This document shows, one piece after another, positions 14,788 through 28,804 of a stretch of 64,000 nt of DNA. Within the stretch, counting starts at the first letter, position 1. Every line of letters begins with the position of its first letter. This DNA comes from Tessaracoccus sp. MC1865. GTDB taxonomy: Bacteria; Actinomycetota; Actinomycetes; Propionibacteriales; Propionibacteriaceae. The notes beneath the pieces were generated by a model that was not told the origin of the DNA, made no database searches, and saw only the letters and a program-made list of their open reading frames with translations. A program made the position numbers and the translations under genes. The stretch covers positions 2,635,614 through 2,699,613 of the forward strand of contig NZ_CP072596.1 of the NCBI RefSeq assembly GCF_017815535.1, read 5' to 3'.

Positions 14788-15744
14788 CTACTTCAGTTGG
14801 ATATCCCCGGGGTTTGACTCGGGGTCGGCCGGTACCGGTGAGATGGTGCGCCACGGCGGGGTCGCGGGGAGCAGCGACTCGTATTCGGCCACCAGTGCGT
14901 CCTGGTACTCACCGCGATACGTCCCGCCCAGGAAGCGCGGGAGGGCCTCCTCGCGGAAACGCTGCCAGCTCGCCGCCTCGCTACCGGGCATGATCGGGTA
15001 GAACAGCACCCCTTCGGAGAAGGCGCTGTCCCGGTCGCCCGGGGCGTCACCGATCAGCATGATGTGGTCGTCTTCGTACTTACCCTTGGCGGCCCAGTGC
15101 ACGTGCTGGGCCTTGGAACCCATCTCCTGGCCGGCGATGACCTTCATGTACCCGGCCAGGTCGTGCTCGTGCCATTCGCGCTCGAGCGCCTCCATGGGGG
15201 TGGCGGAGACCGTCATGCAGTCCACCTGCCCGGCCATGGCGTCGAACGCCTCACGCACACCGGGGAACGGGGCGCAGCCGTGCACCATCCACTCGATCAG
15301 CTCGTTGACGCCCTTGCCCCACTCCATGCACTCCTCGATCTCCACCGACGGCTGGGCCGCGGCGAAGTCGGCGATGCCGCGGTCGGAGCGGGGGTAGCCG
15401 GAGTCGAGGAACTTCTGCAGTTCCCGCCCCTCGGGGATCCGCACACCGCGCTCCAGCACCTCCGGGCGCTTCCTCAGCAGCTCGAAGAGCCGGGCCAGCG
15501 CCACCCACCGGTTCTGGCCGCGGGTGGTGGAGTACAGGTTCACGAAGAGGGCGGTCTCCCGCACCAGGGTGGAGGCGGCCTGGAGGTTGAAGTACTTGAT
15601 GTAGGCCGGCGTGAAGCACTCTTGGTGCTTGATGTCCATGGCGTCCATGGCGCAGCCGTCGGAGTCGATCCCAACGAAGAATTCCCTGGTGGGCTTGAAG
15701 TCGACGAGGACCTGGGCCCGCTCCGGCATCTTGGTTTCGGTCAT
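14788..15744 (-). CDS. HAD-superfamily hydrolase
   Basis: A 318-aa HAD-fold protein. Motif I is GIDSDGCAMDAMD, with Asp-x-Asp followed by GC instead of the usual GT; motif II is TVSATP; motif IV is LIGDAPGDRDSAF. The large cap insertion (about residues 50-190) is uncommon and lacks a family I recognise. I chose the ATG ending at 15744 because GGAG is 6 nt upstream. It follows the GH3 gene by 11 nt and is probably in the same operon, so a sugar-phosphate phosphatase is plausible. Confidence 0.75.
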   Translation of the reverse strand: MTETKMPERAQVLVDFKPTREFFVGIDSDGCAMDAMDIKHQECFTPAYIKYFNLQAASTLVRETALFVNLYSTTRGQNRWVALARLFELLRKRPEVLERGVRIPEGRELQKFLDSGYPRSDRGIADFAAAQPSVEIEECMEWGKGVNELIEWMVHGCAPFPGVREAFDAMAGQVDCMTVSATPMEALEREWHEHDLAGYMKVIAGQEMGSKAQHVHWAAKGKYEDDHIMLIGDAPGDRDSAFSEGVLFYPIMPGSEAASWQRFREEALPRFLGGTYRGEYQDALVAEYESLLPATPPWRTISPVPADPESNPGDIQLK

Positions 15745-15755
15745 GAACATCTCCG

Positions 15756-17519
15756 TCAGATTCTGGTGTCGGCGAACGGGAACATCTCGGTGGCGGGGGT
15801 GCCCTTGAACTCGGAGCGGCCCTCCAGCTTGTCGAGCATGATGTCGAGGTTGAAGTCCTTGTCGTCGAAGCCCGCCACGTAGGTCTTCACCTGCGGCATG
15901 TCGGCCAGCAGGTTCGGCGAGGCCGTCGACACGAGGATGGTGGGCAGTTCGTGCACGTACCAGGGCATGTCGAGCGTGCCCTTCGTACCGGGCCAGTAGG
16001 GGCGCTCGATCGGCTGGCCGAGGCCGTAGACGTGGGCCACGGACAGGACCATGTCGTAGTTGTCGGTCAGGTCCGAGACCGGCGACTTGCCGGCGTAGGC
16101 GTTGGCGAGGATCTTCTTGATCTCGTCGGGCTCCTTGCCCTTGACCTTCTCCAGCTGGGATTCGTAGCGGTCCGCCCGGTAACCACGCTCACGCAGCTTC
16201 TCGACGAACCGGTCTGCCGGGCGGCCGCCGCCGTTACCGGCGAGCATCGCGAAGGGGCTGGGCGCGGCGCCGATCGGCACGACGAGGACGCGGGGGTACT
16301 TCTGCGGTGACATCGGCAGGTTCCCGGGCTGCTTGTTCTTGACCAGCGTGATGGCGGCGTCGGCCACCTGCTCGGCGACCTTCTTCGACTCGGGCAGGCC
16401 GATGCGCGCCATGGCCTCCTCCTTGGGAGGGAGGATCTCCTCGCGCTTGCGGTTGTGCAGGCCCAGCATGGCCTTGAGGCCGAGGATGCGGGTCAGGGCG
16501 TCGTGGAGTCGCTCGTCGGACAGCTTGCCGGACTTCCAGCCCTCCATCATCCAGCCGAAGTCCTCGTCGGGGTCGTTGAAGAAGAGGAACAGGTCGCAGC
16601 CGGCCTCGATGGCCGTGGGCAGGATGTCGGAGCGCTTCATGGCGCCCGTCAGGCCCACCATGTGGGACGCGTCGGTGACGACGACGCCGTTGAAGCCCAG
16701 CTTGCCCCGGAGGAGGTCGGTGTTGATCTCCTTCGACAGGGTGGCCGGCAGGATGTCCTCGTCGGTCATGTCGGGGTTGAAGTGCTTCTGGTACGACGGG
16801 AGCGCGATGTGGCCGGTCATGATCGACGGCAGGCCGGCGTCGAAGAGGCCCTGGTACAGCTTGCCGAACGTGGCGTCCCATTCCTCGGTGGACAGCCAGT
16901 TGGGGGCGTGCGAGAGGTGCTGGTCGCGCTCGTCGATGCCGTCGCCGGGCCAGTGCTTCGCGGCCGGGGCGATGCCGGACTCCTGGATGCCCTTCATGTA
17001 GGCGAGGCTCATCTCGAGGACCTTGTCGACGTCGCCGCCGAACGAGCGCAGCGACACGACGGGGTTGCGCCAGTTGCGATACACGTCGACGATGGGCGCG
17101 AACGACCAGTTGCAGCCGATGGCGGCGGCCTCGATGCCGGACACGCGGCCCATCTCGTAGGCCCACCGGGCGTCGTCGGTGTTGCCGATCTTGGCTTCGT
17201 AGCCGATGTACGTGCCGTCGGTGCAGGCCCCGTTGCCGCCGGCCTCGGTGTTGGCGGCGATCAGCATGGGCAGCTTCGACTTCGTCTGGAGGATGTAGTT
17301 CTGCTCCCACACCTCTTCGGCCTTGCCGGGGTTATAGCGCACCGCGCCGATGTGGTAGTTGTCCAGCACCCCGGTGAGGTACTCCTCGGAGCGCTCGGCG
17401 CCCATGTTGACGAACAGCTGACCGATCTTCTCCTCGTCGGTCATCTCCGAAATGGTCTTCTCGACCCAGGCGACCGCCTCGTCGTCCAGATTGAAGGGTT
17501 GCGCTGTGAGATCCACCAT
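15756..17519 (-). CDS. GH3 glycosidase, NagZ/beta-N-acetylhexosaminidase type
   Basis: A 587-aa glycoside hydrolase family 3 enzyme without a signal peptide, so probably cytoplasmic. The catalytic barrel has AAKHWPGDGIDERDQH, the KH-PG-G-...-D-x-H signature of the His/Asp-assisted NagZ-like subgroup. The nucleophile region is GVVVTDASHMVGL. A second domain (about residues 400-587) resembles the GH3 C-terminal domain. It is divergent from 6-phosphogluconate dehydrogenase, across a region with two copies of the motif also found by the glucuronidase operon. Substrate is inferred as a beta-hexosaminide or related glycoside; beta-glucosidase is the alternative. Confidence 0.85.
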   Translation of the reverse strand: MVDLTAQPFNLDDEAVAWVEKTISEMTDEEKIGQLFVNMGAERSEEYLTGVLDNYHIGAVRYNPGKAEEVWEQNYILQTKSKLPMLIAANTEAGGNGACTDGTYIGYEAKIGNTDDARWAYEMGRVSGIEAAAIGCNWSFAPIVDVYRNWRNPVVSLRSFGGDVDKVLEMSLAYMKGIQESGIAPAAKHWPGDGIDERDQHLSHAPNWLSTEEWDATFGKLYQGLFDAGLPSIMTGHIALPSYQKHFNPDMTDEDILPATLSKEINTDLLRGKLGFNGVVVTDASHMVGLTGAMKRSDILPTAIEAGCDLFLFFNDPDEDFGWMMEGWKSGKLSDERLHDALTRILGLKAMLGLHNRKREEILPPKEEAMARIGLPESKKVAEQVADAAITLVKNKQPGNLPMSPQKYPRVLVVPIGAAPSPFAMLAGNGGGRPADRFVEKLRERGYRADRYESQLEKVKGKEPDEIKKILANAYAGKSPVSDLTDNYDMVLSVAHVYGLGQPIERPYWPGTKGTLDMPWYVHELPTILVSTASPNLLADMPQVKTYVAGFDDKDFNLDIMLDKLEGRSEFKGTPATEMFPFADTRI

Positions 17520-17590
17520 GAGTCTGTCCTCGCTCCGTTGCTGTGGGTTACGGTGTCAACTCCACCAGAGTCGTCTTTCGAGACGGCCAA

Positions 17591-17605
17591 GTTTCCATTT
17601 GTTGC
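17591..17605 (+). promoter_or_regulatory. Candidate operator GTTTC-N5-GTTGC
   Basis: Direct-repeat element GTTTC (17591-17595) and GTTGC (17601-17605), one mismatch from the GTTGC-N5-GTTGC consensus, in the GH3/gnd divergent region and preceded by AA as in two other copies. Confidence 0.45.
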
Positions 17606-17681
17606 CACCGACGGCGCGGTCAGCGCCGCTCCCTTCCCAGGCCCCCGAGGCCTCCCGCCATCCCCACGGAGCCGGGCGGTG

Positions 17682-17696
17682 GCAACTTACTGCAAC
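17682..17696 (-). promoter_or_regulatory. Candidate operator GTTGC-N5-GTTGC
   Basis: On the minus strand, a perfect GTTGC-AGTAA-GTTGC element in the GH3/gnd divergent region, 63 nt upstream of gnd. Confidence 0.55.
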
Positions 17697-17758
17697 ACCT
17701 CCGGCGCCACCACCACCTCGCGACATGCTGGAGCCACACAACGTAGAAGGAGAACCCG

Positions 17759-19213
17759 ATGGCACTCGCCACCCCCACCCCGTCCAGCGCTGACATCGGC
17801 GTCACCGGCATGGGCGTCATGGGATCCAACCTGGCGCGCAACCTTGCCCGCCACGGCCACAGGGTGGCCATCCACAACCGCACCGCAGCCAAGACCGAGG
17901 CCGTGATGGCCCAACACGGCGACGAGGGAACGTTCGTCCCCGGCGAGTCGATGGACGACTTCGTGGCCTCCCTCACGTCGCCCCGCGTCGCGATCATCAT
18001 GGTTCAGGCCGGCCCCGCCACCGACGCCGTCATCGAGGAGCTCGCCTCCCGGATGGACGAGGGCGACATCATCGTCGACTGCGGCAACGCCCTGTTCTCG
18101 GACACCCGCCGCCGCGAGGCTGCGCTCCGCGAGCGCGGGCTGCACTTCGTCGGCTGCGGCGTCTCCGGCGGCGAGGAGGGAGCGCTGCTCGGCCCGTCGA
18201 TCATGCCCGGCGGCTCGGAGGAGTCCTACCGTCGCCTCGGCCCCATGCTGGAATCCATCTCCGCACATGTCGACGGCGAACCCTGCTGCACCCATGTCGG
18301 CGCGGACGGCGCCGGCCACTTCGTCAAGATGGTCCACAACGGCATCGAGTACGCCGACATGCAGGTCATCGGCGAGGCCTACGACCTCCTCCGCCGCGCG
18401 CTCAGCCTCAGCCCCGCGGAGATCGCCGACATCTTCGAGGAGTGGAACAAGGGCGACCTCGATTCCTACCTGATGGAGGTCTCCGTCGAGGTGCTGCGCC
18501 AGGTCGACGCCCGCACCGACACGCCGCTGGTTGACGTCATCGTCGACGCGGCGGGTCAGAAGGGCACCGGCGCCTGGACCACCCAGACCGCACTGACGCT
18601 GGGCGTACCCGTCACCGGCATCGGTGAGGCGACCTTCGCCCGCGGATTGTCGTCGTCGCCCGTCCAGCGCGAGGGCGCACACGGCTTCGCGTCCGAGGCC
18701 GCCGGCTGGTACATCGAGGACAGCGACGCCTTCATCGAGGACGTCCGCCAGGCGTTGTACGCGTCGAAGCTGGTGGCCTACAGCCAGGGCTTCAACCTGA
18801 TCCAGGCCGCCGCCGCCGAATATGACTGGGACATCAGCCTCGGCGACATGGCCCGCATCTGGCGCGCCGGCTGCATCATTCGGGCCCGCTTCCTCGGCGA
18901 GGTCACCCGCGCCTACGAGGGCAACCCGGATCTCCCGCTGCTCATCGGCGACAAGTACTTCTACGACAAGGTGGTGGCCGCGCTCCCGTCGTGGCGCCGC
19001 GTGGTGAGCCTCTCGGCCCTCCACGGCGTGCCGGCCCCGGTCTTCTCGTCGTCGCTGTCCTACTACGACGGGGTGCGCAGCCCCCGCCTGCCCGCCGCGC
19101 TCATCCAGGGTCAGCGCGACTACTTCGGCGCCCACACCTACAAGCGCGTCGACGACGAGGGCAGCTTCCACACCCTGTGGGCAACCGACGAGCGTCAGGA
19201 AGTGGTGAGCTGA
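17759..19213 (+). CDS. gnd: 6-phosphogluconate dehydrogenase, decarboxylating
   Basis: A 484-aa enzyme that oxidises 6-phosphogluconate to ribulose 5-phosphate and CO2 with NAD(P). The Rossmann motif is GVTGMGVMGSNLARNLARHG, followed by NRT, which favours NADP. The substrate and catalytic segments VGCGVSGGEEGALLGPSIMPGG and GHFVKMVHNGIEYADMQ (catalytic Lys, His-Asn) are intact, and length is normal. An AGAAGGAG site precedes the ATG. The kinase follows 1 nt after the stop and a LarA homologue comes next, so here it probably ends a sugar-acid catabolic route rather than serving only the pentose phosphate pathway. Confidence 0.95.
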   Translation: MALATPTPSSADIGVTGMGVMGSNLARNLARHGHRVAIHNRTAAKTEAVMAQHGDEGTFVPGESMDDFVASLTSPRVAIIMVQAGPATDAVIEELASRMDEGDIIVDCGNALFSDTRRREAALRERGLHFVGCGVSGGEEGALLGPSIMPGGSEESYRRLGPMLESISAHVDGEPCCTHVGADGAGHFVKMVHNGIEYADMQVIGEAYDLLRRALSLSPAEIADIFEEWNKGDLDSYLMEVSVEVLRQVDARTDTPLVDVIVDAAGQKGTGAWTTQTALTLGVPVTGIGEATFARGLSSSPVQREGAHGFASEAAGWYIEDSDAFIEDVRQALYASKLVAYSQGFNLIQAAAAEYDWDISLGDMARIWRAGCIIRARFLGEVTRAYEGNPDLPLLIGDKYFYDKVVAALPSWRRVVSLSALHGVPAPVFSSSLSYYDGVRSPRLPAALIQGQRDYFGAHTYKRVDDEGSFHTLWATDERQEVVS

Positions 19214-19214
19214 C

Positions 19215-20288
19215 ATGCAGCTACGGGAAGATGCGAAGTGGGCACTTGTGGTGCCAACCTCCATGGGTGTGCGGATCACGCCGGAGAACCGGCAGCCGGT
19301 GCACTCCTCGAGCCGCTACCTGATGCAGGCCACCTCGGCCGAGACCAACGTCGCCTCCGTGGCGTCCCATCTTGGCCTGCCGGTCAAGGTGCTCACCAGG
19401 TTCGTCGACGGCTCCCCCATCTCGGCGTTCATCAAGGCGGATCTGCGCGCCCGCGGCATGGCCTACGAAGGCCCGGAGGTGCCGCAGGGCGACGCCTGGG
19501 GCAACCGCCACCAGTTCAACATCGCCGACGCCGGGTTCGGCGGCCGCGCGCCGCGCGTCTGGAACGACCGCGCCGGCGAGGTGGGACTGGACCTGAAGGT
19601 CGCCGACTACGACCTGGACAAGCTGTTCCGCGACGAGGGCGTGAAGATCCTGCACCTGTCCGGCCTGGTGGCGGCGCTGTCTCCCCAGACCTCGACGTTC
19701 TGCGTGGAGCTGGCCAAGAAGGCCCGCGAGCACGGCACGGCGATCAGCTTCGACCTCAACTTCCGGGCGTCGTTCTGGAAGGGTCGCGAGGACGAACTGC
19801 ACAGGGCCTTCCACGAGATCGCCCAGCTCTGCGACATCCTCTACGGCAATGAGGAGGACTTCCAGCTGTGCCTGGGCATTCCCGGCCCGGAGGCCGGCGG
19901 CGAGGACATCGCCGACGAGATCGGCAGCTTCAAGGCCATGATCGCCCGCATCTCCGAGCGGTACCCCCGCGCCTCGTTCATCGGCACGTCGCTGCGCGAG
20001 GTCATCTCCGCCAACCACCACCGCTGGGGCATGGTGCTCTGGGGCGAGGGTGAGTTCCACGTCGCCCACCTCCGCGACATCGACGTTCTCGACCGCATCG
20101 GCGGCGGCGACGGCTCTATCGGCGGCGTCCTCCACGGCCTGCTGCGCGGTTGGCCCGCGGAGAAGTGCATGCAGTTCGGCTGGGCGACGGGGGCCCTCGC
20201 TGCCACGTCCCTCAACGACTACGGCTCCCCCATGGATGAGGCGCAGGTTTGGTCCATCTGGGAGGGCAACGCGCGTGTCCAGCGATGA
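19215..20288 (+). CDS. PfkB-family sugar (acid) kinase
   Basis: A 357-aa ribokinase-fold kinase resembling 2-keto-3-deoxygluconate kinases. It has an ETNVASVASHLGLPVKVLTRF N-terminal motif, a FDLNFRASFWKG strand and the anion-hole/catalytic segment DRIGGGDGSIGG with Asp retained but GS in place of the usual AF. It starts 1 nt after gnd and is followed by larA. Adjacency to gnd suggests gluconate is phosphorylated to 6-phosphogluconate; KDG phosphorylation is the family-based alternative. The fold is certain and the substrate open. Confidence 0.8.
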   Translation: MQLREDAKWALVVPTSMGVRITPENRQPVHSSSRYLMQATSAETNVASVASHLGLPVKVLTRFVDGSPISAFIKADLRARGMAYEGPEVPQGDAWGNRHQFNIADAGFGGRAPRVWNDRAGEVGLDLKVADYDLDKLFRDEGVKILHLSGLVAALSPQTSTFCVELAKKAREHGTAISFDLNFRASFWKGREDELHRAFHEIAQLCDILYGNEEDFQLCLGIPGPEAGGEDIADEIGSFKAMIARISERYPRASFIGTSLREVISANHHRWGMVLWGEGEFHVAHLRDIDVLDRIGGGDGSIGGVLHGLLRGWPAEKCMQFGWATGALAATSLNDYGSPMDEAQVWSIWEGNARVQR

Positions 20289-20304
20289 ATGAAGCCGCTG
20301 AGCC

Positions 20305-20327
20305 GTCCCGCGCCCCAGGTGCGGGAC
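20305..20327 (+). terminator. Inverted repeat between kinase and larA
   Basis: GTCCCGC (20305-20311) and GCGGGAC (20321-20327) form a 7-bp stem with a 9-nt loop, without a T-run. It may attenuate readthrough into larA. Confidence 0.35.
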
Positions 20328-20340
20328 GACCGGCCGGACG

Positions 20341-20346
20341 TAGGGT
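20341..20346 (+). promoter_or_regulatory. -10 element of leaderless larA promoter
   Basis: TAGGGT lies 6 nt before the larA ATG (20353), and no ribosome site is present, consistent with a separate leaderless transcript for larA. Confidence 0.45.
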
Positions 20347-20352
20347 GGTCCC

Positions 20353-21660
20353 ATGACGAAGCTGTATCCCGGAGTGCCCGACGCTGCAACCGTCGGAGGC
20401 CCAGACCAGGTCCTCACCGAGGAGCAGATCCGCACGTTCGTCCTCGATGAGCTGCGTCGCTACGACTTCGACGGCAAGCGCGTCACCCTCGTCGTGCCGG
20501 ACGGCACGCGCCACGCCCCCGTCGACATGGTGGCCAAGGTCATCCACGAGGCCCTCGGCCAGCGCCCGAAGGACGTCCGCGTGGTCATCGCGCTGGGCAC
20601 CCACGACTACATGGGCGACGAGGCCATCGGCCGGCTCATGGGCTCGGCGCCGGGACGGTTCGAGGAGACCTACCCCGGTTGGGAGATCCACAACCACGAC
20701 TGGCGCAACCACGACACCTTCGCCCACCTCGGCACCATCCCGGCCGCGCGCATCGGCGAGCTGACCGACGGCCGCCTGACTGACCGCGACATGACGGTGC
20801 TGGTCAACAAGATGGTCGTCGACACCGACATCTCGCTGGTGCTCGGCCCTGTCCTTCCCCACGAGGTGGTGGGCATCTCCGGTGGCAACAAGTACTTCTT
20901 CCCCGGACTCTCCGGCCACGACGTCATCGACATGTCCCACTGGGTGGGCGCCCTGATCACCAGCTACGAGATGATCGGATCCGTCGGCATCACCCCCGTG
21001 CGGCAGATGATCGACGCGGCGGCCGCGCTCGTCCCGTCGACGAAGCTGCTGCTCGGCATGATCGTCAAGCCCGGCTCCGACGACCTGCAGTTCATGGCCT
21101 TCGGCGACACCCGCTCCTCCTGGGAGGCCTGCGCCGAGGTGTCCAGCCAGGTGCACGTGAAATACGTGCCGAAGGCGTACAAGCGCGTGGTCTCCGTGAT
21201 CCCGCAGATGTACGAGGACATGTGGACGGGCGCGAAGGGCTTCTACAAGATGGAGCCCGTCGTCGCCGACGGCGGCGAGCTGATCATCTACGCCCCGCAC
21301 ATCAAGGACGTGTCCGTGATGCACCCGGGCATTGAGGAGATCGGCTACCACAACCGGCAGTACTTCGTCGGACAGTGGGAGCGGTTCAAGGACCACCCGT
21401 GGGGCGAGCTGGCGCACTCGACGCACCTGCGCGGCCTGGGCGACTACGACCCGGCCACCGGGGTCGAGACCAACCGCGTGACGGTGACCCTGGCCACCGG
21501 CATACCGCGGGAGGTGGTGGAGAAGATCTCGCTGAACTACCTGGACCCGGCGGATGTGGAGCTGGAGGCGATGTCGGCAGACCCGGACACGCTCGTGGTG
21601 CCCAACGCCGGCGAACTGCTGCACCGGACTGAGGAGCAGAGGGGCAAGCTCCCCGCCTGA
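20353..21660 (+). CDS. LarA-family nickel-pincer racemase/epimerase, probable D-mannonate/D-gluconate 2-epimerase
   Basis: A 435-aa member of the LarA superfamily, which interconverts alpha-hydroxy acid epimers with the nickel-pincer nucleotide cofactor. The L. plantarum LarA active-site residues are matched with near-identical spacing: Asp50-x2-Arg53 (VPDGTRH), His84 (LGTHD), His170 (LPHE), cofactor-binding Lys180 (GGNKYFFPG) and nickel ligand His196 (DMSHW). The 10- and 16-residue gaps between His170, Lys180 and His196 equal those in LarA. It sits beside 6-phosphogluconate dehydrogenase and a sugar kinase, while larE-larB-larC are inside the glucuronidase operon. Members acting on sugar acids are known in this superfamily, as far as I recall. 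A C2 epimerisation of mannonate to gluconate would complete the local pathway; lactate racemisation is the default alternative. Confidence 0.85.
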   Translation: MTKLYPGVPDAATVGGPDQVLTEEQIRTFVLDELRRYDFDGKRVTLVVPDGTRHAPVDMVAKVIHEALGQRPKDVRVVIALGTHDYMGDEAIGRLMGSAPGRFEETYPGWEIHNHDWRNHDTFAHLGTIPAARIGELTDGRLTDRDMTVLVNKMVVDTDISLVLGPVLPHEVVGISGGNKYFFPGLSGHDVIDMSHWVGALITSYEMIGSVGITPVRQMIDAAAALVPSTKLLLGMIVKPGSDDLQFMAFGDTRSSWEACAEVSSQVHVKYVPKAYKRVVSVIPQMYEDMWTGAKGFYKMEPVVADGGELIIYAPHIKDVSVMHPGIEEIGYHNRQYFVGQWERFKDHPWGELAHSTHLRGLGDYDPATGVETNRVTVTLATGIPREVVEKISLNYLDPADVELEAMSADPDTLVVPNAGELLHRTEEQRGKLPA

Positions 21661-21670
21661 GGTGACGCCA

Positions 21671-21701
21671 GATCTGGCCCGCGAAGACGCGGTGCCAGAT
21701 C
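21671..21701 (+). terminator. Hairpin downstream of larA
   Basis: GATCTGGC-CCGCG (21671-21683) pairs with CGCGG-T-GCCAGATC (21688-21701) around an AAGA loop, 10 nt after the larA stop. A second 9-bp hairpin, CGCACTACG (21703-21711) and CGTAGTGCG (21726-21734), follows at once. It is strong in structure but lacks a T-run. Confidence 0.5.
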
Positions 21702-21920
21702 CCGCACTACGGCCCGGACACGTCGCGTAGTGCGAGACCTCGCACCGAAGTCGGTGCTTGAACCGCCACCACGACGGCGGGCCGAGCCGTCTTGCGACTC
21801 TTGCCCCGTCCGAACATCACCGTCAACCCCGGAGCGCCCAACGGCCGCTGCCACCCGCTTCGTCCGCGCATTGCTGCCGTCCACCGCGGCCACGGACGAC
21901 CCGCAGGGGGTCAACGGGTG
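21690..21920 (+). repeat. Intergenic direct repeat, copy 1
   Basis: Repeated as 22063-22295 at an offset of 374-375 bp. The two copies share a 56-nt identical core (here 21823-21878), the GTAGTGCGA and TCGCACCGA blocks, the palindromic GCACCG-AAGT-CGGTGC element and the terminal GTCAACGGGTG block. Confidence 0.8.
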
Positions 21921-22062
21921 ACACCCGACCAGCTGGGGCCGCCGTCGCTCACCCGCTGGAAGCCGAGGCCGAGGATGGTGACGCTGAGCAAGGCAGCCAA
22001 CACGGCAGGTCGGCGCCAACCACGCCCGCCCGGCCAGCTTGGCCGTCCTTGGCGAACGAGCA

Positions 22063-22295
22063 CGGTGCCAGATCTCGCAGTGCCTGCGCAGGCGCGCCGC
22101 GTAGTGCGAAATCTCGCACCGACGTCGGTGCTGGAACCGACACTCCGACGGCGGGTCGAGCCGTCTTGCGACTTCTGCCACCGTCCCGACAGCACAGTCA
22201 ACCCCGGAGCGCCCAACGGCCGCTGCCACCCGCTTCGTCCGCGCATTGCTGCCATCCACCGCAGCCATAGACAACCCGCAGCCCGTCAACGGGTG
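22063..22295 (+). repeat. Intergenic direct repeat, copy 2
   Basis: Second copy of the element at 21690-21920; the 56-nt identical core is 22198-22253. Here the central palindrome is the perfect GCACCGACGTCGGTGC. The spacer between copies (about 140 bp) is not repeated. Confidence 0.8.
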
Positions 22296-22360
22296 CCACC
22301 AGATCAGCCCAGGCCGCCACCACGCGTTGGACGCCCCGCTGGACGGCCAATCAACGCTCG

Positions 22361-22414
22361 AGGTGTTGTCCGAAGCACACCAGGTGTTGTCCGTTTCCAG
22401 TCAGGTGTTGTCCG
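22361..22414 (+). repeat. Three AGGTGTTGTCCG direct repeats, 21-bp period
   Basis: Identical 12-mers at 22361-22372, 22382-22393 and 22403-22414, each separated by 9 unrelated nt, so all lie on one face of the helix. They end 49 nt before the DUF559 gene start and may be a regulator or self-recognition array. Confidence 0.7.
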
Positions 22415-22463
22415 TTGGCCCAGGCCCCTTCCCCGCCCTCGGCTCCCGTTCCAGGCTGGACCC

Positions 22464-23384
22464 GTGTATGCGCGCAAGAACATCCCAGACTCGCTCCTCA
22501 AGCAGATCGGCGAGCAGGCCCAGGTCGTCAGCACCCGGCAACTACTCGAGGGCGGGCTGAGCCGACGCATCATCGCCCGCATGGCGCAGGAGTGGACCCC
22601 GGTTGCGCCCGGTCTCCACCTCCTTGGCCCACCGTCGTTCGCGGCCGCAGCGTGGGCGGGGCTGCTGCGCGGCGGAAGCGAGGCCGTGGTGGGCGGGCTC
22701 GCCTCGGGCCACCTGCACGACGCGGTGCGCGACGCCCCGTCGAAGGTCACCGTCTGGGCGCCCAAGGCCCGGGCCGACTTTGATCTCGACCGATGGCAGA
22801 TCCGGTTCCGCCGCGCCACCCGGCACGGTGTGCTGAGCCTCCGTCGGACCACCGTCGAGGTGACGATGCTGGACATCGCGGACGAGACGACGGAGAACGA
22901 CGCCGTCTCGGCAGTCGCGCGGGCACTGGCGAAAGGGCTGACGACCCCCGAGCGGGTCCTCAAGCAACTGGAGGCGACACCCGGGGTCAGGCACCGGGCT
23001 GTCCTGCGCGAACTGTGCGGCCAGGCGGGCCGCGGAATCGAGAGTGCGCTCGAGTGGCGGTTCCATACCGAGGTGCTCCTACGCCACGGGCTGCCCATCC
23101 CGGAGCGGCAGGTGCAACGCATGGCGGGCCGAGCGGACGCCTACTACCGCGAGTACAACCTCATCATCGAGCTCGACGGGATGCGCGACCATGCGGACGG
23201 CTCGCAAGACATGCTGAGAGACAACGACAACGCCGTCCACCACGACGGCCGGACGCTGCGCTTCGGCTGGAACGGCGTCATGTACGAAAGTTGCCGCGCG
23301 GCCGGACAGGTGGCCTCGCTGCTCTGGAAAGGCGGCTGGCCAGACCTCCCCTCCCGCTGCGCCCGCTGCGTGCCGGCCCGGTGA
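22464..23384 (+). CDS. AbiEi-like/DUF559 protein with Vsr-type nuclease fold
   Basis: A 306-aa protein. The N-terminal part (about 1-90) resembles the AbiEi-type antitoxin winged helix: VVSTRQLLEGGLSRRIIARMAQEW followed by PGLHLL. The C-terminal part (about 190-300) has the DUF559/PD-(D/E)XK-like pattern GIESALEWRFHTEVLLRHGLP and YREYNLIIELDGMRDH. The GTG at 22464 matches the usual N-terminus of the family (VYARKNIP); the frame is open far upstream but without start signals. No partner toxin gene is adjacent. Such orphan proteins are common in actinobacteria and their role is unknown. Confidence 0.75.
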   Translation: MYARKNIPDSLLKQIGEQAQVVSTRQLLEGGLSRRIIARMAQEWTPVAPGLHLLGPPSFAAAAWAGLLRGGSEAVVGGLASGHLHDAVRDAPSKVTVWAPKARADFDLDRWQIRFRRATRHGVLSLRRTTVEVTMLDIADETTENDAVSAVARALAKGLTTPERVLKQLEATPGVRHRAVLRELCGQAGRGIESALEWRFHTEVLLRHGLPIPERQVQRMAGRADAYYREYNLIIELDGMRDHADGSQDMLRDNDNAVHHDGRTLRFGWNGVMYESCRAAGQVASLLWKGGWPDLPSRCARCVPAR

Positions 23385-23424
23385 CCGACGGTCACATAAC
23401 CGACACGTCACCTCGACCCCCCGT

Positions 23425-23472
23425 CGTAGTGACAGATGTGGCACCCGGGACGGTTCCAGAATCGTCACTACG
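23425..23472. repeat. Hairpin related to the upstream repeat
   Basis: CGTAGTGAC (23425-23433) and GTCACTACG (23464-23472) form perfect 9-bp arms. The start resembles the CGTAGTGCG block of the repeats at 21726 and 22100, so similar elements flank the DUF559 gene on both sides. Confidence 0.5.
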
Positions 23473-23520
23473 CGGGCTCCGGAAGCGTTGTGTCGAGTTC
23501 GACACCTGGACAGCAACGAA

Positions 23521-23551
23521 ACGGCCCCCGCACCAGGAGTGCGGGGGCCGT
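23521..23551 (-). terminator. Strong terminator of the transporter gene
   Basis: Perfect 13-bp arms ACGGCCCCCGCAC (23521-23533) and GTGCGGGGGCCGT (23539-23551), loop CAGGA. On the minus strand it is followed by TTTCGTT, placing it 16 nt after the transporter stop. Confidence 0.85.
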
Positions 23552-23567
23552 GCCGTGGGAACAGAGG

Positions 23568-25106
23568 TCACTCGCGCGGATCGTTGGCGATGTTGCCGCG
23601 GCGGGCGCCGGTCTCGCCGTGGGTCACACCGCTGGCGGCCGGGATGACGTCGGCGGCGGCCGGGTCGACCGACTGAGCCGAATCGGGCTCCACAGCGGCG
23701 GCGCGGGCCTGCAGCGTCTGGAAGTTGTCCATGACCTGCCTGCGGCCGAGCGGGTACCAGAAGAGCATGATGGCGGAGGTGATCAGGTACAGGATGCCCG
23801 GCACCAGCAGGAACAGCAGGTAGATGCCGTTCTTGGTCTCCAACGACTGCTGGGCCCCTGCCTGCGCGGCCTCGGAGCTGTAGCCGATGGAGCCCACGGC
23901 CCAGCCGACGACGTAGCCGGCGGCGGCCTGGCCGAGCTTGCGGCTCCAGCTGTAGATGGCGTACACGGTGCCGTCGTCGCGTTCGCCGGTCTTGATCTCC
24001 TGGTAGTCGAGGACGTCGGTGATGACCGCCCAGACGAGGGTGTTGTACATCGCCACGCCGATGGACAGGACGAAGAACAGCGCGATGAACAGCCAAGGGT
24101 TCGAGATCTTCATGATCCACATGACGATCGAGAGCAGCCCGGAGACGGCGAGCATGGTGCCGATCATCTCCTTCTTGCCGAACTTCATGGCCAGGCGGGT
24201 GGCGACCAGCGCGATGATGAAGACAGGGGCGATGGCGACGATCTGCGCGGTCGACATCATGCCGCCGTTGTTGAAGTAGTCCTTCCACAGGTACGCGGTG
24301 GTGGTGGAGGCGATCTGGTTGCCGATGAGGAAGACGATGGCGCCGATGACCAGGGCGATCAGGGGGCGGTTCTTCGTCAGGGTGCCCAGCATCTGACCGA
24401 ACGAGGCCTGCTGGTCCTTGGGCTTGAGGATGGACTGGACGCGCTCCTCGACGTTGAAGTAGCACAGCGCGTAGCAGGCGACTGCGGCGATGGCACAGGC
24501 GACGGCGGCCAGCGCCATCCGGGTGGGGTCGAGCTGGTCGACGCCGTTGGCGTTCTGCACGAACACAACCTGGGGCAGCACGGCCGAGATCAGGAGGAAG
24601 GCGAGTTGGGCGCCCACGGAGCGGAACACGGACAGCGACGCGCGGTGCTCGGGATTGTTGGAGATGACCGCAGCCATGGAGCCGTAGGGGATGTTGATCA
24701 TCGTGTAGAAGACCGAGCCCCACACCACGTAGGTGACGCACATGTAGATCACGCGCACCGCGTAGCTCGCATCGACGGCGAACGGCATGAACATCATCGC
24801 GCCGGCCAGGGCGACTGGGATGGCGATGCGGAGGATCCACGGCTTGAAGCGGCCGCTCGACGAGGGCTTCAGCACGTCGACGAGGCGCCCCATGCCCACA
24901 TCGGTGAAGGCGTCGAGGAGGCGGGCCAGCAGGAACAGCAGACCAACATGGGCCGGGTTGATGCCCATCACGTCGGTGTAGAACACCATGAAGAACATCA
25001 TTTGGAGCATGAAGGTGAAGTCGTTGCCGAAGTCACCGAAGAGGTAGCCGATCTTGTCGCGCCACCCGAAGGGGCGAACTGTCCGGTTCTGAGTGCTGAT
25101 GGACAT
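23568..25106 (-). CDS. GPH-family glycoside/hexuronide:cation symporter
   Basis: A 512-aa inner-membrane transporter of the glycoside-pentoside-hexuronide:cation symporter family, like E. coli UidB. About twelve hydrophobic helices are visible. The family signatures FGWRDKIGYLFGDFGNDFTFML near the N-terminus, the LLDAFTDVGMGRLVD loop, and VLDYQEIKTGERDDGTVYAIYSWSRKLGQA in the middle are all present. The start follows a GGAGACGGAAACA leader. It is divergent from the beta-glucuronidase gene over a 286-nt regulatory region, which makes a glucuronide the likely substrate. Confidence 0.9.
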   Translation of the reverse strand: MSISTQNRTVRPFGWRDKIGYLFGDFGNDFTFMLQMMFFMVFYTDVMGINPAHVGLLFLLARLLDAFTDVGMGRLVDVLKPSSSGRFKPWILRIAIPVALAGAMMFMPFAVDASYAVRVIYMCVTYVVWGSVFYTMINIPYGSMAAVISNNPEHRASLSVFRSVGAQLAFLLISAVLPQVVFVQNANGVDQLDPTRMALAAVACAIAAVACYALCYFNVEERVQSILKPKDQQASFGQMLGTLTKNRPLIALVIGAIVFLIGNQIASTTTAYLWKDYFNNGGMMSTAQIVAIAPVFIIALVATRLAMKFGKKEMIGTMLAVSGLLSIVMWIMKISNPWLFIALFFVLSIGVAMYNTLVWAVITDVLDYQEIKTGERDDGTVYAIYSWSRKLGQAAAGYVVGWAVGSIGYSSEAAQAGAQQSLETKNGIYLLFLLVPGILYLITSAIMLFWYPLGRRQVMDNFQTLQARAAAVEPDSAQSVDPAAADVIPAASGVTHGETGARRGNIANDPRE

Positions 25107-25232
25107 TTGTTTCCGTCTCCTTCGACGAGGCAGCACCCGTGCTGCCGAGGCCAGTGCAGTTCGGTACCGCACCGATCTGCTCCCATAGGTTGATGAAGTA
25201 AATGTCTCATTCGAGTCGCTGGCGACCTCAAA

Positions 25233-25247
25233 GTTGCCGTCTGTTGC
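25233..25247 (+). promoter_or_regulatory. Candidate operator GTTGC-N5-GTTGC
   Basis: Perfect direct repeat GTTGC-CGTCT-GTTGC in the transporter/gusA divergent region, preceded by AAA. Confidence 0.55.
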
Positions 25248-25307
25248 ACCCCGGCCAATTTGACAATTCAACAACGTGTCGGATGCGCCGAGCCATACCG
25301 GGCCACT

Positions 25308-25322
25308 GCAACTTATGGCAAT
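25308..25322 (-). promoter_or_regulatory. Candidate operator ATTGC-N5-GTTGC
   Basis: Minus-strand copy, one mismatch from consensus, in the transporter/gusA divergent region. With the copy at 17682 it shares GCAACTTA on the plus strand. Confidence 0.45.
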
Positions 25323-25337
25323 CTGGGGGAAGGCAAA

Positions 25338-25352
25338 GTTGCCGCGGGTTGA
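25338..25352 (+). promoter_or_regulatory. Candidate operator GTTGC-N5-GTTGA
   Basis: Third copy in this intergenic region, preceded by AAA and 41 nt before the gusA start, one mismatch from consensus. Confidence 0.45.
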
Positions 25353-25392
25353 ATTGAGGCACTGACCCGGACCCTCAAGCAAAGGAGCTCAC

Positions 25393-27198
25393 ATGTTGGG
25401 CGCCCGTACCTCCCTTTCCCGCACCATCACGTCGCTGGACGGTGTGTGGGACTTCTCGGTCGACACGCAGAACAGCGGCATCGAGCAGCGCTGGTTCGCC
25501 GGGCCCCTGGAGCAGCCGCGCCCCATGCCGGTGCCGGCGTCGTACAACGACATCACCACCGAATCCGCGGTCCGCGACCACGTCGGCTGGGTCTGGTACC
25601 AGCGCACCGTCACGGTGCCCCGCCCCGCGGACGGCGAGCGGTTGTTCCTCCGCTTCGGCTCGGCCTCGCACGAGGCCCGCGTCTGGGTCAACGATGACGA
25701 GGTGGCCTCCCACGTGGGCGGCTACCTGCCGTTCGAGGCCGACGTCACGGATCTCGCCGGGCGACAGTTCCGGCTCACCGTCGCCGTCGACAACCGCCTC
25801 AGCTGGCAGAGCATCCCGCCGGGCTTCGTGTCGGTGGACGAGGTGGGCAACGCCACCCAGTACTACTTCCACGACTTCTACAACTACGCCGGCCTGCACC
25901 GCAGTGTGTTGCTCTACACGCGCCCCCAACTGGCGGTGACCGACGTGACCATCACCACGCGGATCGACGGCAGGGCCGGCGTCGTGGACTACGCCGTCGA
26001 GGTCGCGGATGCAACTCAGGGACCGGCGGAAGCGGCGGCCACCCAGGTGTCGGTGCGCGTCCTGGACGCCGCGGGCGTGGAGGTCGGCAGCGCAGCGGGC
26101 GCCGCCGGCCGGGTCCGCGTCGAGGATGCCGAGCTCTGGGAACCCGGCCGCGGCTACCTCTACACGCTGGAGGTCACCGCCGGCGAGGACGTCTACCCCC
26201 AGCCGTTCGGCATCCGCACCGTCGAGGTGAAGGACTCGCAGTTCCTCATCAACGGCCGGCCCTTCTACTTCCGCGGCTACGGCCGGCACGAGGACAACCT
26301 GGTGCGCGGCAAGGGCCACGACGACGCGCTCATGGTGCACGACTTCGAACTCATGACCTGGCAGGGCGCCAACTCCTTCCGCACCTCGCACTACCCGTAC
26401 GCCGAGGAGGTCATGGACCACGCCGACCGGATGGGCTTCGTCGTCATCGACGAGACCGCCGCCGTCGGCATGAACCAGGGCCTCTCGGGCGGCATCTTCG
26501 GCGACGGCAAGCCACGCTCCACGTTCTCCCCCGAGACCATCAACGACGAGACCCGGCGCGTCCACGAGGCGCACATCCGCGAGCTCATCGCGCGCGACAA
26601 GAACCATCCCAGCGTCGTGCTGTGGTCGATCGCCAACGAGCCCGAAACCTGGTCGGACGCGAGCCGCGCCTACTTCGAGCCGCTCGTAGCCGCCACCCGC
26701 GACGCGGACCCCAGCCGCCCCGTCGGCTACGTCAACGTGCAGCTGTCCACGCCGGACAAGGAGAAGGTGGCAGACCTCTACGACGTCGTCATGCTCAACC
26801 GGTACTACGGCTGGTACTGGGACAACGGCAACCTCGAACTCGCGGAGAAGCACCTCCGCGAAGAACTCGACGGGTGGCTCACCCTCGCCCCCGGCAAGCC
26901 CATCCTGTTCACCGAATACGGCCCCGACACCCTCAACGGGTTGCGCGACTTCCACCGCCGCCCTTGGTCCGAGGAGTACCAGGTGGACATGCTCGCCATG
27001 TTCCACCGGGTGTTCGACGACTACCCCGAGGTGGTCGGCGAGCAGATGTGGAACTTCGCCGACTTCCAGACCACCCCCGGCATCATGCGCGTGGGTGGCA
27101 ACAAGAAGGGCATGTTCACCCGCGACCGGCTGCCCAAGTCGGCCGCCTACGACGTGCGCAAGCGCTGGCACCAGCTGCGCTCCGAGCAGGGCAACTGA
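25393..27198 (+). CDS. uidA: Beta-glucuronidase (GH2)
   Basis: A 601-aa cytoplasmic glycoside hydrolase family 2 enzyme that releases glucuronate from glucuronides. It has the N-terminal jelly-roll (GVWDFSVD), Ig-like and TIM-barrel domains. The acid/base Glu416 is in IANEPETW and the nucleophile Glu508 in LFTEYGPD. The Asn570-x-Lys572 pair (GGNKKG) corresponds to the NxK motif that reads the sugar carboxylate and separates glucuronidases from galactosidases. Ribosome site AAGGAG precedes the ATG. It leads an operon larE-larB-larC-lacI-uxaC-uxuB and is divergent from a hexuronide symporter. Confidence 0.95.
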   Translation: MLGARTSLSRTITSLDGVWDFSVDTQNSGIEQRWFAGPLEQPRPMPVPASYNDITTESAVRDHVGWVWYQRTVTVPRPADGERLFLRFGSASHEARVWVNDDEVASHVGGYLPFEADVTDLAGRQFRLTVAVDNRLSWQSIPPGFVSVDEVGNATQYYFHDFYNYAGLHRSVLLYTRPQLAVTDVTITTRIDGRAGVVDYAVEVADATQGPAEAAATQVSVRVLDAAGVEVGSAAGAAGRVRVEDAELWEPGRGYLYTLEVTAGEDVYPQPFGIRTVEVKDSQFLINGRPFYFRGYGRHEDNLVRGKGHDDALMVHDFELMTWQGANSFRTSHYPYAEEVMDHADRMGFVVIDETAAVGMNQGLSGGIFGDGKPRSTFSPETINDETRRVHEAHIRELIARDKNHPSVVLWSIANEPETWSDASRAYFEPLVAATRDADPSRPVGYVNVQLSTPDKEKVADLYDVVMLNRYYGWYWDNGNLELAEKHLREELDGWLTLAPGKPILFTEYGPDTLNGLRDFHRRPWSEEYQVDMLAMFHRVFDDYPEVVGEQMWNFADFQTTPGIMRVGGNKKGMFTRDRLPKSAAYDVRKRWHQLRSEQGN

Positions 27199-27212: not shown

Positions 27213-28124
27213 ATGCAACCCATCGACCTCCACGCCCCGCTGTCGGCCGACCTCCAAAGGGTCGCCGACGCGGTCGCGGCCTCGGTCCTGAGCGGTACCG
27301 AGGGGCGGGCGAACGCAGCGCAAGACTCCTCGCCCCGCCTCCGCGTCGGTGTCGCCTACTCGGGCGGAGTCGACTCCACCGTCCTGGCAGCCCTCACCGC
27401 CCGCGCCGTGGGCGAGGCGAACACGGTGCTGCTGCTGGGCGTGTCGCCGTCGTTGGCCAAGCGGGAGCGACGGCTGGCCCACCGCCAGGCGGAGCAGCTC
27501 GGGCTGCCCCTGGTGGAGGTCGCCACCAACGAGCTCGCCAACGCCGACTACGCAGCCAACCCGGTGGACCGCTGCTACCACTGCAAGGACGAGCTCTTCA
27601 CCGTCCTGGACACCCGCGTGGCCGACGAACTGCAACTCACCGCCATCGCCTACGGCGAGAACGCCGACGACGCCTCCCGGCCGGACCGTCCCGGCAGCCG
27701 CGCGGCCGCCGAGCACCGCGTCCTCCATCCCCTCGCCGACGCCGGCGCCGGCAAGGCGGACGTCCGCGCGGTCGCCGTCGAACTCGGTCTGGCCAGCGCG
27801 CTGAAGCCCGCGGCCCCGTGCCTCGCGAGCCGGATCCCGCACGGGGAACCGGTCAGCGCCGAGAAGCTGGCGGCCATCGACCTGGCGGAGGACGCCGTGC
27901 TCGCCGCGGGATTCTCCGACTGCCGGGTGCGTCACCACGGCAGCATCGCCCGCATCGAGGTGCCCGCGGACGAGTTCCACCTCATCGCCGACACCGCCGT
28001 GCGCCAGGAGCTTTTGAGCCGCGTCAAGGCGGCGGGTTTCCAGCACGCCACGCTCGACCTGGGCGGCATCCAGTCCGGGAACTTCACCCTCACCCTGCTC
28101 AACCGGCGCCCGGAGGCCCTGTGA
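27213..28124 (+). CDS. larE: LarE, nickel-pincer cofactor sulfur transferase
   Basis: A 303-aa ATP-dependent enzyme that adds sulfur to the nicotinate-derived precursor of the nickel-pincer nucleotide. The PP-loop motif SGGVDST is at residues 50-56, the conserved RCYHCKDELF at about 120-129, and Cys203 in PCLASR matches the sacrificial cysteine of L. plantarum LarE. I chose the ATG at 27213, preceded by GGAAGGA and 14 nt after the gusA stop; the longer upstream frame only overlaps gusA. Its stop overlaps the larB start (TGATG). Placement inside a glucuronide operon is unusual. Confidence 0.93.
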   Translation: MQPIDLHAPLSADLQRVADAVAASVLSGTEGRANAAQDSSPRLRVGVAYSGGVDSTVLAALTARAVGEANTVLLLGVSPSLAKRERRLAHRQAEQLGLPLVEVATNELANADYAANPVDRCYHCKDELFTVLDTRVADELQLTAIAYGENADDASRPDRPGSRAAAEHRVLHPLADAGAGKADVRAVAVELGLASALKPAAPCLASRIPHGEPVSAEKLAAIDLAEDAVLAAGFSDCRVRHHGSIARIEVPADEFHLIADTAVRQELLSRVKAAGFQHATLDLGGIQSGNFTLTLLNRRPEAL

Positions 28125-28804
28125 TGGACATCGCCACCCTGGACTTCGACCGCTACCGCCGCCGCGGCTACCCGGAGGCCGTGTTCTGCATGGGCAAGAC
28201 ACTGGCCCAGGTGCACGCCATCGCCCGCGCGTGGCGGGAGAAGTCGGAGCAGACCGACCAGGAGCTGGGCACCGTCCTGTTCACCCGCGCCACACCCGAG
28301 CAGCTCACCGCCATCCGCGACGAACTGCCCGGCGTCTTCATCGACGACACCGCCTCCCTCGCCGCCTGGCCGGGCGAACCCCCGGCGCCCAGCGGCGGCC
28401 GCGTCGTCGTCGTGTGCGCCGGCACCTCGGACCTGCCCGTCGCCCGCGAGGCGGCGCTGACCGCCCGCTTCCTCGGGCGCGAGGTCACCGAAGTGGTCGA
28501 CGTCGGCGTGGCGGGCCTGACCAGGGTCGTCGCCCGTCTCGACGAACTGCGCGAGGCCGACGTCATCGTGCTCGCGGCGGGGATGGACGCCGCCCTGGTG
28601 CCCGTCGTGGCCGGTCTGGTGGCCTGCCCCGTCGTCGCGGTGCCGACCTCGGTGGGATACGGGGCCGCGTTCGAGGGAGTCGCGGCGCTGTTGAGCATGT
28701 TGAACTCCTGCGCCCCCGGCGTGGGAGTCGTCAACATCGACAACGGCTACGGGGCGGGCCACTTGGCTGCCCAGATCGCGGCGCCCGGGAGGCATCGTGC
28801 ATGA
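28124..28804 (+). CDS. larB: LarB, nicotinate adenine dinucleotide carboxylase/hydrolase
   Basis: A 226-aa protein that carboxylates and hydrolyses NaAD in the first step of nickel-pincer synthesis. The PurE-like C-terminal domain is evident in VVVVCAGTSDLPVAREAALTA, VDVGVAGLTRV and the PTSVGYGAAFEGVAALLSMLNSC segment. It overlaps larE by one base and larC by eight, so the three are translationally coupled. Confidence 0.93.
   Translation: MDIATLDFDRYRRRGYPEAVFCMGKTLAQVHAIARAWREKSEQTDQELGTVLFTRATPEQLTAIRDELPGVFIDDTASLAAWPGEPPAPSGGRVVVVCAGTSDLPVAREAALTARFLGREVTEVVDVGVAGLTRVVARLDELREADVIVLAAGMDAALVPVVAGLVACPVVAVPTSVGYGAAFEGVAALLSMLNSCAPGVGVVNIDNGYGAGHLAAQIAAPGRHRA

Follow-up and report, generated by a model that had tools for sequence, protein, structure and literature searches.

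The locus studied here raises the question of what a relative of lactate racemase (LarA) is doing among genes for glucuronide breakdown, in a bacterium whose genome shows no UxuA-type mannonate dehydratase. The window, i.e. the whole stretch of DNA analysed (64,000 nucleotides from Tessaracoccus sp. MC1865), carries this larA homologue at 20353–21660 on the forward strand, an open reading frame of 435 amino acids beginning with ATG. Its product is probably a GntE-type C2-epimerase of hexonates that stands in for mannonate dehydratase in a glucuronide pathway lacking UxuA. The sequence itself directly shows the full set of catalytic residues, a specificity signature, genes for the cofactor, a conserved gene order and a shared DNA motif.

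Gene order and candidate control sites

Two genes precede larA on the forward strand: gnd (17759–19213), whose product passes the curated cut-off for decarboxylating 6-phosphogluconate dehydrogenase, and the gene of a PfkB-family kinase (19215–20288), which is related to 2-keto-3-deoxygluconate (KDG) kinases and is predicted to phosphorylate O6 of gluconate (or mannonate). Beyond larA, the gene of a hexuronide-type symporter of the GPH family (MFS_2; 23568–25106, reverse strand, the methionine of MSISTQN being taken as start) is divergent from a beta-glucuronidase gene (GUS, GH2; 25393–27198, forward, above the curated cut-off). Further forward-strand genes are larE (27219–28124), larB (28124–28804) and larC (28797–30164), encoding respectively the sulfur transferase, a biosynthesis protein and the nickel insertion protein of the nickel-pincer-nucleotide (NPN) cofactor, all three above their NCBIfam cut-offs; a LacI-family regulator gene (30160–31194), a candidate for control of the cluster; uxaC (31204–32625), for glucuronate isomerase, above the curated cut-off; and a uxuB-type mannonate/fructuronate oxidoreductase gene of the mannitol dehydrogenase family (32622–34022). 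UxuB scores 251.4 against a curated NCBIfam cut-off of 603, so its role is assigned by family and context. The original prediction had put 4.7–6.9 kb between larA and its maturation genes, a range that needs correction: larE, larB and larC lie 5.6, 6.5 and 7.1 kb past the end of larA.

Several other features of the locus were recorded. The reverse strand at 14788–17519 encodes a protein of HAD-like type, with a DSDG motif and no Pfam match, and a GH3 glycosidase in which a KHWPGDG..RDQH segment occurs; many related loci retain this divergent pair next to gnd. Directly after uxuB, a single forward open reading frame (34032–35972) fuses a GT4-type glycosyltransferase with a PIG-L deacetylase domain; it is matched as two overlapping pieces in locus L059 of Tessaracoccus massiliensis. 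Between larA and the next open reading frame, 21690–22318 holds directly repeated segments (94 and 145 nt long, 84–86% alike, spaced by about 375) together with an inverted repeat with 22-nt arms. The gap between the kinase gene and larA contains an inverted repeat whose arms, GTCCCGC and GCGGGAC, enclose a 9-nt loop (20305–20327); it has no T run and is thus not a classical terminator.

A candidate -10 hexamer of leaderless type, TAGGGT (20341..20346, forward), is separated from the larA ATG by exactly 6 nt, and no Shine-Dalgarno sequence precedes this ATG. TAGCCT occurs at identical spacing in three related loci (L043, L044, L059), giving a hexamer at that spacing in 4 of 13 larA upstream regions, window included; the other nine are without the exact form. 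A sigma-70 scan of 17400–25500 returned no site, a type of scan that does not cover leaderless-type promoters. It is plausible from these sequences that larA has a promoter of this kind, and also plausible that it is expressed separately from gnd and the kinase gene.

Two candidate operators of common pattern were detected, GCAACTTACTGCAA (17682..17695, forward), which begins 77 nt upstream of gnd, and GCAACTTATGGCAA (25308..25321, forward), which lies between the divergent symporter and beta-glucuronidase genes. Allowing at most one mismatch, GCAACTTANNGCAA has two copies in the 64 kb of the window, one preceding gnd and one in the symporter/beta-glucuronidase gap, with 0.01 expected, and AAGTTNCCNNNNGTTGC has three copies at those same two places, one of them mismatched, with 0.05 expected. 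In all 12 gnd upstream regions scored (L060 excluded), the best match to a 15-base consensus starts 75–90 nt before gnd. The match reaches at least 13 of 15 bases in eight of the 12, as compared with 60 of 3000 random windows; the score is partly circular, since the consensus was derived from the same upstream regions, and the random windows come from the same loci with real sites included and are not G+C-matched. We infer that the LacI-family protein may bind this shared candidate operator. Before the window larA the consensus reaches only 7 of 15 bases at best, and the lack of an operator site there is consistent with a separate start.

Catalytic residues and substrate specificity

The Lar_N domain (PF09861) of the window protein scores 76.9 bits against a gathering cut-off of 23.3, and the E-value of 3.5e-59 to PDB entry 4nar excludes a chance match. 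The catalytic set of LarA has been given as D72, R75, H108, H174, K184 and H200 (PMC7583248). As the original prediction held, these residues have counterparts in D50, R53, H84, H170, K180 and H196, with spacings of 10 and 16 residues between the last three; all six are invariant in 31 of 31 aligned LarA rows, the window included, the other 30 rows being 29–89% identical to the window protein. The "full catalytic set" claimed at that time was correct for the six residues listed and overlooked a seventh, K295, the equivalent of K298 of LarA, which is invariant in the 31 rows as well. By its Lar_N domain, its complete catalytic and NPN-binding set and the presence of larB, larC and larE, the window LarA is, at the level of sequence, an NPN enzyme of the LarA superfamily.

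The best PDB sequence match is 4nar (204 bits), with 37 bits for LarA (2yjg) and 29 bits for the malate racemase Mar2; a profile of the 31 rows gives 425.9, 76.6 and 70.1, respectively. An AlphaFold2 model of the window protein (mean pLDDT 84.1, below 50 at 172–175 and 351–354, which adjoin the specificity residues) has 4nar as its closest fold, with TM scores of 0.83/0.85 and 29% identity in the Foldseek alignment. This entry is GntE2 of Thermotoga maritima, for which epimerisation of D-mannonate to D-gluconate has been measured, and LarAH groups 18–20 are marked by E-V/S after the second catalytic His, a Trp in alpha-11 and small residues in alpha-14 (PMC7583248). In the alignment the window protein carries these features as H170-E171-V172, W291 and G351, the FF loop and W358 of LarA being replaced by EV and G. 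A tree of 24 rows puts it on the same side as GntE2 and separates it from two LarA proteins and Mar2, with support of 100/99; the tree is midpoint-rooted, has long branches and partial PDB stretches, and lacks characterised members of groups 18 and 19. Neither grouping with a lactate-specific clade nor lactate-type specificity residues, the outcome that the original prediction had named as telling against it, was found in the 24-row tree, the EV loop, W291 or G351. Its expectation of a likely active enzyme is supported. Its view of a sugar-acid rather than a lactate context agrees with the GntE2-side placement, the GntE-like residues and the glucuronate genes of the locus, and its choice of mannonate as a test substrate appears apt, as GntE2 is the closest solved relative and the specificity residues are GntE-like.

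Among NCBIfam models the top match is NF052594 (LarAH18 hexonate epimerase) at 169.1 bits, missing its cut-off of 500; this model matches 31/31 alignment rows, but so do four racemase models. With a score so far under the cut-off, the protein is called GntE-type here and is not filed as LarAH18. In addition, LarAH10, which is outside the GntE groups, epimerises D-gluconate/D-mannonate too (PMC11770544), so that the signature does not map uniquely onto the activity. The window LarA is likely to be a GntE-type D-mannonate/D-gluconate 2-epimerase acting on the free acids.

Competing enzymes, distribution and the PfkB kinase

The genome of Tessaracoccus sp. MC1865 is a single contig of 3,035,218 bases with an estimated completeness of 99.89%. 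A search for UxuA (PF03786) returned no match in it, the identical search being positive in 5 of 14 control genomes, and the ordinary UxuA (Ashwell) pathway was therefore dropped for this genome. The Entner–Doudoroff exit via Edd was also set aside, since both PF00920 (IlvD/Edd) proteins are dihydroxy-acid dehydratases above cut-off. The lone Eda-family match is barely over the Pfam cut-off (29.9 versus 27.8 bits) and scores 47.6 against 156.05 with the eda model. This protein of 206 amino acids, encoded beside an MFS-like transporter gene (L080 1465–2085 in G000), reads LLYPAD at the place of the Eda lysine motif, which we take to be KFFPAE; possibly it is not an aldolase. In the complete genome, no protein exceeds the cut-off of either gluconokinase model tried: GntK-like matches of 28.7 and 21 bits were rejected against a cut-off of 113.75, and the FGGY matches were rejected as the glycerol kinase GlpK and a XylB-like protein (376.1 versus 380.25 on a trimmed query). 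Of four enolase-superfamily matches, three are over cut-off; L082 and L083 score 112.6 and 90.1 bits, far below the ManD cut-off of 550, and may have a mannonate or gluconate dehydratase role, while L084 looks like menC from a reading of its sequence. Two gnd copies, 58% identical to each other, are present, and the window copy is 73% identical to gnd of the Arachnia cluster. In L069 and L077, the gnd next to larA shares 64–65% identity with the other gnd of the MC1865 genome and 58% with the window copy, indicating that the pathway-dedicated gnd is not one old lineage.

Judged by larA, near relatives are T. massiliensis (95% in its best-matching segment), T. oleiagri (87%) and Arachnia propionica (78%). 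A sample of 197 family genomes, taken evenly from a larger group, contains 82 with a LarA match at E 1e-20 or better, 74 of these matches being strong (44% identity or more); eight with 28–30% identity (G397, G416, G435, G438, G455, G540, G544, G574) were left out of the strong class. The phylum sample has LarA in 8 of 396 genomes. Strong LarA and UxaC occur together in 68 of the 197 genomes, LarA alone in 6, UxaC alone in 36 and neither in 87. Within the 104 genomes with UxaC, 60 have strong LarA only, 19 full UxuA only, eight both and 17 neither, a split with a Fisher p of 1.2e-5 that is uncorrected for relatedness and, the genomes not being independent, is descriptive. UxuA matches at or below the cut-off were dropped (G524, G546, G573, G587, G456, G591), including the one in G591 that the tool marked as passing together with its neighbours (24.6 versus 23.7), and eleven divergent two-piece matches were kept apart from full UxuA. 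When the divergent matches are included, the counts become 13 both, 55 LarA only, 23 UxuA only and 13 neither. Six of the 17 genomes with neither hold only a distant LarA and four a divergent UxuA-like match. In genera g1, g245, g258 and g259 both genes occur, but no single genome combines strong LarA with full UxuA; the clear exception is genus g253, in which 7 of the 8 LarA genomes have both.

The order gnd–kinase–larA, co-directional, was seen in 15 of 37 loci (L043–L079); these correspond to 12 distinct loci, three being present in duplicate. Several other genera have larA next to uxaC–uxuB and/or gnd, often with a LacI-like gene, the latter being called by reading the starts of open reading frames. 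None of the query genes is near larA in L056/L065 and L076. Two further genomes of the class with neither strong LarA nor full UxuA were read. In G569 (L108), uxaC–uxuB are 79–83% identical to those of the window, and no gnd, kinase or larA match lies within the 15 kb read. In G515 (L109 1–8021), larE, larB and larC adjoin uxaC–uxuB and larA is absent from the 15 kb; this genome has no LarA match at E 1e-20, and its larA may be lost, divergent or unassembled. The larA match of T. massiliensis (L059 10001–11332; G507) is broken up across several frames, with gnd and the kinase gene still present. No symporter, beta-glucuronidase, larE, larB, larC, uxaC or uxuB match was found in the 21.3 kb read of this locus, where the next gene seen after larA is the GT/PIG-L gene, and UxaC was not found in G507. 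Unless a sequencing fault is responsible, this pattern suggests that larA decayed as the pathway was lost. Two gnd–kinase–larA blocks are present in G546 (L060, L061), the gnd of L060 being matched in two overlapping pieces.

The PfkB kinase misses the cut-offs of the NCBIfam KDG kinase models tried (29.3/400, 34.5/400 and 85.9/440), as do two UxuA-linked kinases. Among the solved chains nearest to it are the KDG kinases 2afb and 1v19. In the kinase tree, which has long branches and weak deep forks, it belongs to a clade of its own on a long stem of 3.07 changes per site. In the N-aromatic-R motif, Asn (VWNDR) is found in 11 of 11 clade rows and Tyr in four PDB rows (VVYDR, VVYDR, VTYQNR, VFYYR), where Tyr103 is presumably a functional residue of KDG kinases. 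The two UxuA-linked kinases (L106, L111) read GVSDR, so that Tyr cannot be relied on to identify KDG kinases; they fall in a different clade and are 38% and 32% identical to the window kinase over the matched part. At E 1e-80 or better, the kinase occurs in 55 of the 197 family genomes, 43 of them with strong LarA, and in none of the 18 genomes in which UxaC and full UxuA are present without a LarA match. Of the 12 kinase genomes without strong LarA, six hold a distant LarA; conversely, 31 strong-LarA genomes have no PfkB kinase at this threshold. The distant LarA proteins read in two of those six genomes, both of genus g258 (L102 6846–7973 and L103 6997–8043), are 27–28% identical; they adjoin larB/larE with no uxaC within 15 kb, in genomes that carry the PfkB kinase.

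The slot directly 3' of uxuB is occupied by a PfkB kinase in L070 and by FGGY kinases in L068, L071 and L072. For the FGGY kinases the best NCBIfam model is gluconokinase, at 330–361 bits with the cut-off of 648.55 missed, and the genome of L072 (G466) also has a PfkB kinase elsewhere (L112). This exchange of PfkB and FGGY kinases after uxuB is the strongest hint that the window kinase may be an aldonate kinase.

Proposed route, alternatives and known systems

In the proposed pathway, beta-glucuronidase would free glucuronate from a glucuronide, UxaC would convert it to fructuronate and UxuB would reduce fructuronate to D-mannonate. LarA would then transiently oxidise C2, moving the hydride to the nickel-pincer cofactor and returning it to the other face to give D-gluconate, which the adjoining PfkB kinase would convert to 6-phosphogluconate and the adjoining second gnd product to ribulose-5-phosphate and CO2. 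As mannonate would be made by the upstream genes and 6-phosphogluconate consumed by gnd, the series mannonate, gluconate, 6-phosphogluconate, ribulose-5-phosphate is the simplest complete chain. We infer from the locus the substrate of LarA, the specificity of the kinase, the order of kinase and epimerase, and the regulation.

The kinase might instead act first, making 6-phosphomannonate that LarA would epimerise to 6-phosphogluconate. Both activities have been shown in extracts of Lactobacillus suebicus, in which phosphorylation came first, the genes being unidentified in that paper (PMC6978723). The high KM for free mannonate, 120 mM in GntE1 and 17 mM in GntE2 (PMC7583248), points in the same direction, as does the relation of the window kinase to kinases that phosphorylate a six-carbon acid. 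Nevertheless, GntE1 and GntE2 do turn over unphosphorylated mannonate (PMC7583248), and a gluconokinase-like FGGY kinase fills the kinase slot in three loci; phosphorylation before epimerisation is thus considered unlikely. It can also be proposed, tentatively at most, that the PfkB clade of this family, for which no function has been described so far, comprises mannonate 6-kinases which, with LarA acting on 6-phosphomannonate, form the sole glucuronate route into central metabolism in UxuA-less species. If this were true, the PfkB/LarA pair would supply genes for a chemistry found described only from L. suebicus extracts.

Other substrates were weighed as well. LarA could epimerise C2 of another hexonate, for instance altronate or an L-hexonate, and mannonate would then go to an unrecognised dehydratase of this genome, for which the enolase-superfamily proteins L082 and L083 are at hand; a different native substrate was also suspected for group 19 by the authors of PMC7583248. 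However, the local genes would make mannonate and consume 6-phosphogluconate, and gnd and the kinase would lack an explanation, which renders such an activity improbable. A lactate racemase placed by chance in a glucuronide locus would share the superfamily, the catalytic set and the nearby larB, larC and larE, but the lactate racemase model Ni_dep_LarA (NF033504) scores 60.9 against a cut-off of 460, the equivalents of the FF loop and W358 are EV and G351, and the tree separates the protein from LarA at 100/99. This identity was dropped as very improbable indeed.

Epimerisation of free mannonate to gluconate by a GntE-type LarA, if right, would place a nickel cofactor enzyme at the committed step by which many Propionibacteriaceae use glucuronate, in this case within a locus that includes a beta-glucuronidase gene, and the fate of the sugar released from glucuronides would hinge on nickel and NPN synthesis. 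It would fill the missing step in UxuA-less genomes, caution against the names "lactate racemase" or "KDG kinase" for such genes and provide a concrete kinase/epimerase pair for deciding between epimerisation before and after phosphorylation.

The kind of enzyme, the idea of the route and, from Thermotoga, the gnd–gntE–gntK operon are already known; the use of a PfkB kinase, the lack of UxuA, the glucuronidase setting in an actinobacterium and the spread of the route in this family appear little described. Among the matches listed in literature searches, there was no PfkB-family gluconate or mannonate kinase, nothing on topic for Tessaracoccus and glucuronate, and "mannonate kinase" or "6-phosphomannonate" appeared in PMC6978723 only. 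Nor did the matches listed include a published account of this route as the sole one in UxuA-less actinobacteria, or a link of such a route to a PfkB kinase or beta-glucuronidase.

KDG kinases (2afb, 1v19) resemble the window kinase in the PfkB fold and the N-aromatic-R motif, whereas the window kinase differs by its separate long-stem clade and Asn in place of Tyr. The route of L. suebicus likewise joins the upper isomerase pathway to 6-phosphogluconate, and UxuA, KdgK and KdgA are reported as not detected in its proteome; it differs in that the kinase candidates are gluconate-kinase homologues and that phosphoketolase is used (PMC6978723). Epimerisation of D-mannonate/D-gluconate has been reported for GntE1, GntE2, a Phytophthora enzyme (LarAH15) and LarAH10 (PMC7583248, PMC11770544). 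The nearest known system is that of T. maritima, with the operon gnd-uxaRED-gntEK and also kdgAK-uxuBA; most of these genes are up 2- to 5-fold on pectin, and the strain is reported not to have grown on gluconate or glucuronate alone (PMC3750489). Its GntE2 (4nar, LarAH group 20) is like the window LarA in fold, in catalytic and NPN residues, in the Glu after the second catalytic His and in the Trp and Lys of alpha-11; its gene, too, belongs to a uronate locus that includes gnd and a gene for a gluconate kinase (PMC3750489). The alpha-14 segments differ, LAHSTHLRG in the window LarA versus AAHVINVRG in 4nar. Furthermore, T. maritima has UxuA, both in the control search and in the published account (PMC3750489), whereas the genome of Tessaracoccus sp. 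MC1865 shows none, and the kinase beside the window LarA is, unlike that of T. maritima, of the PfkB family.
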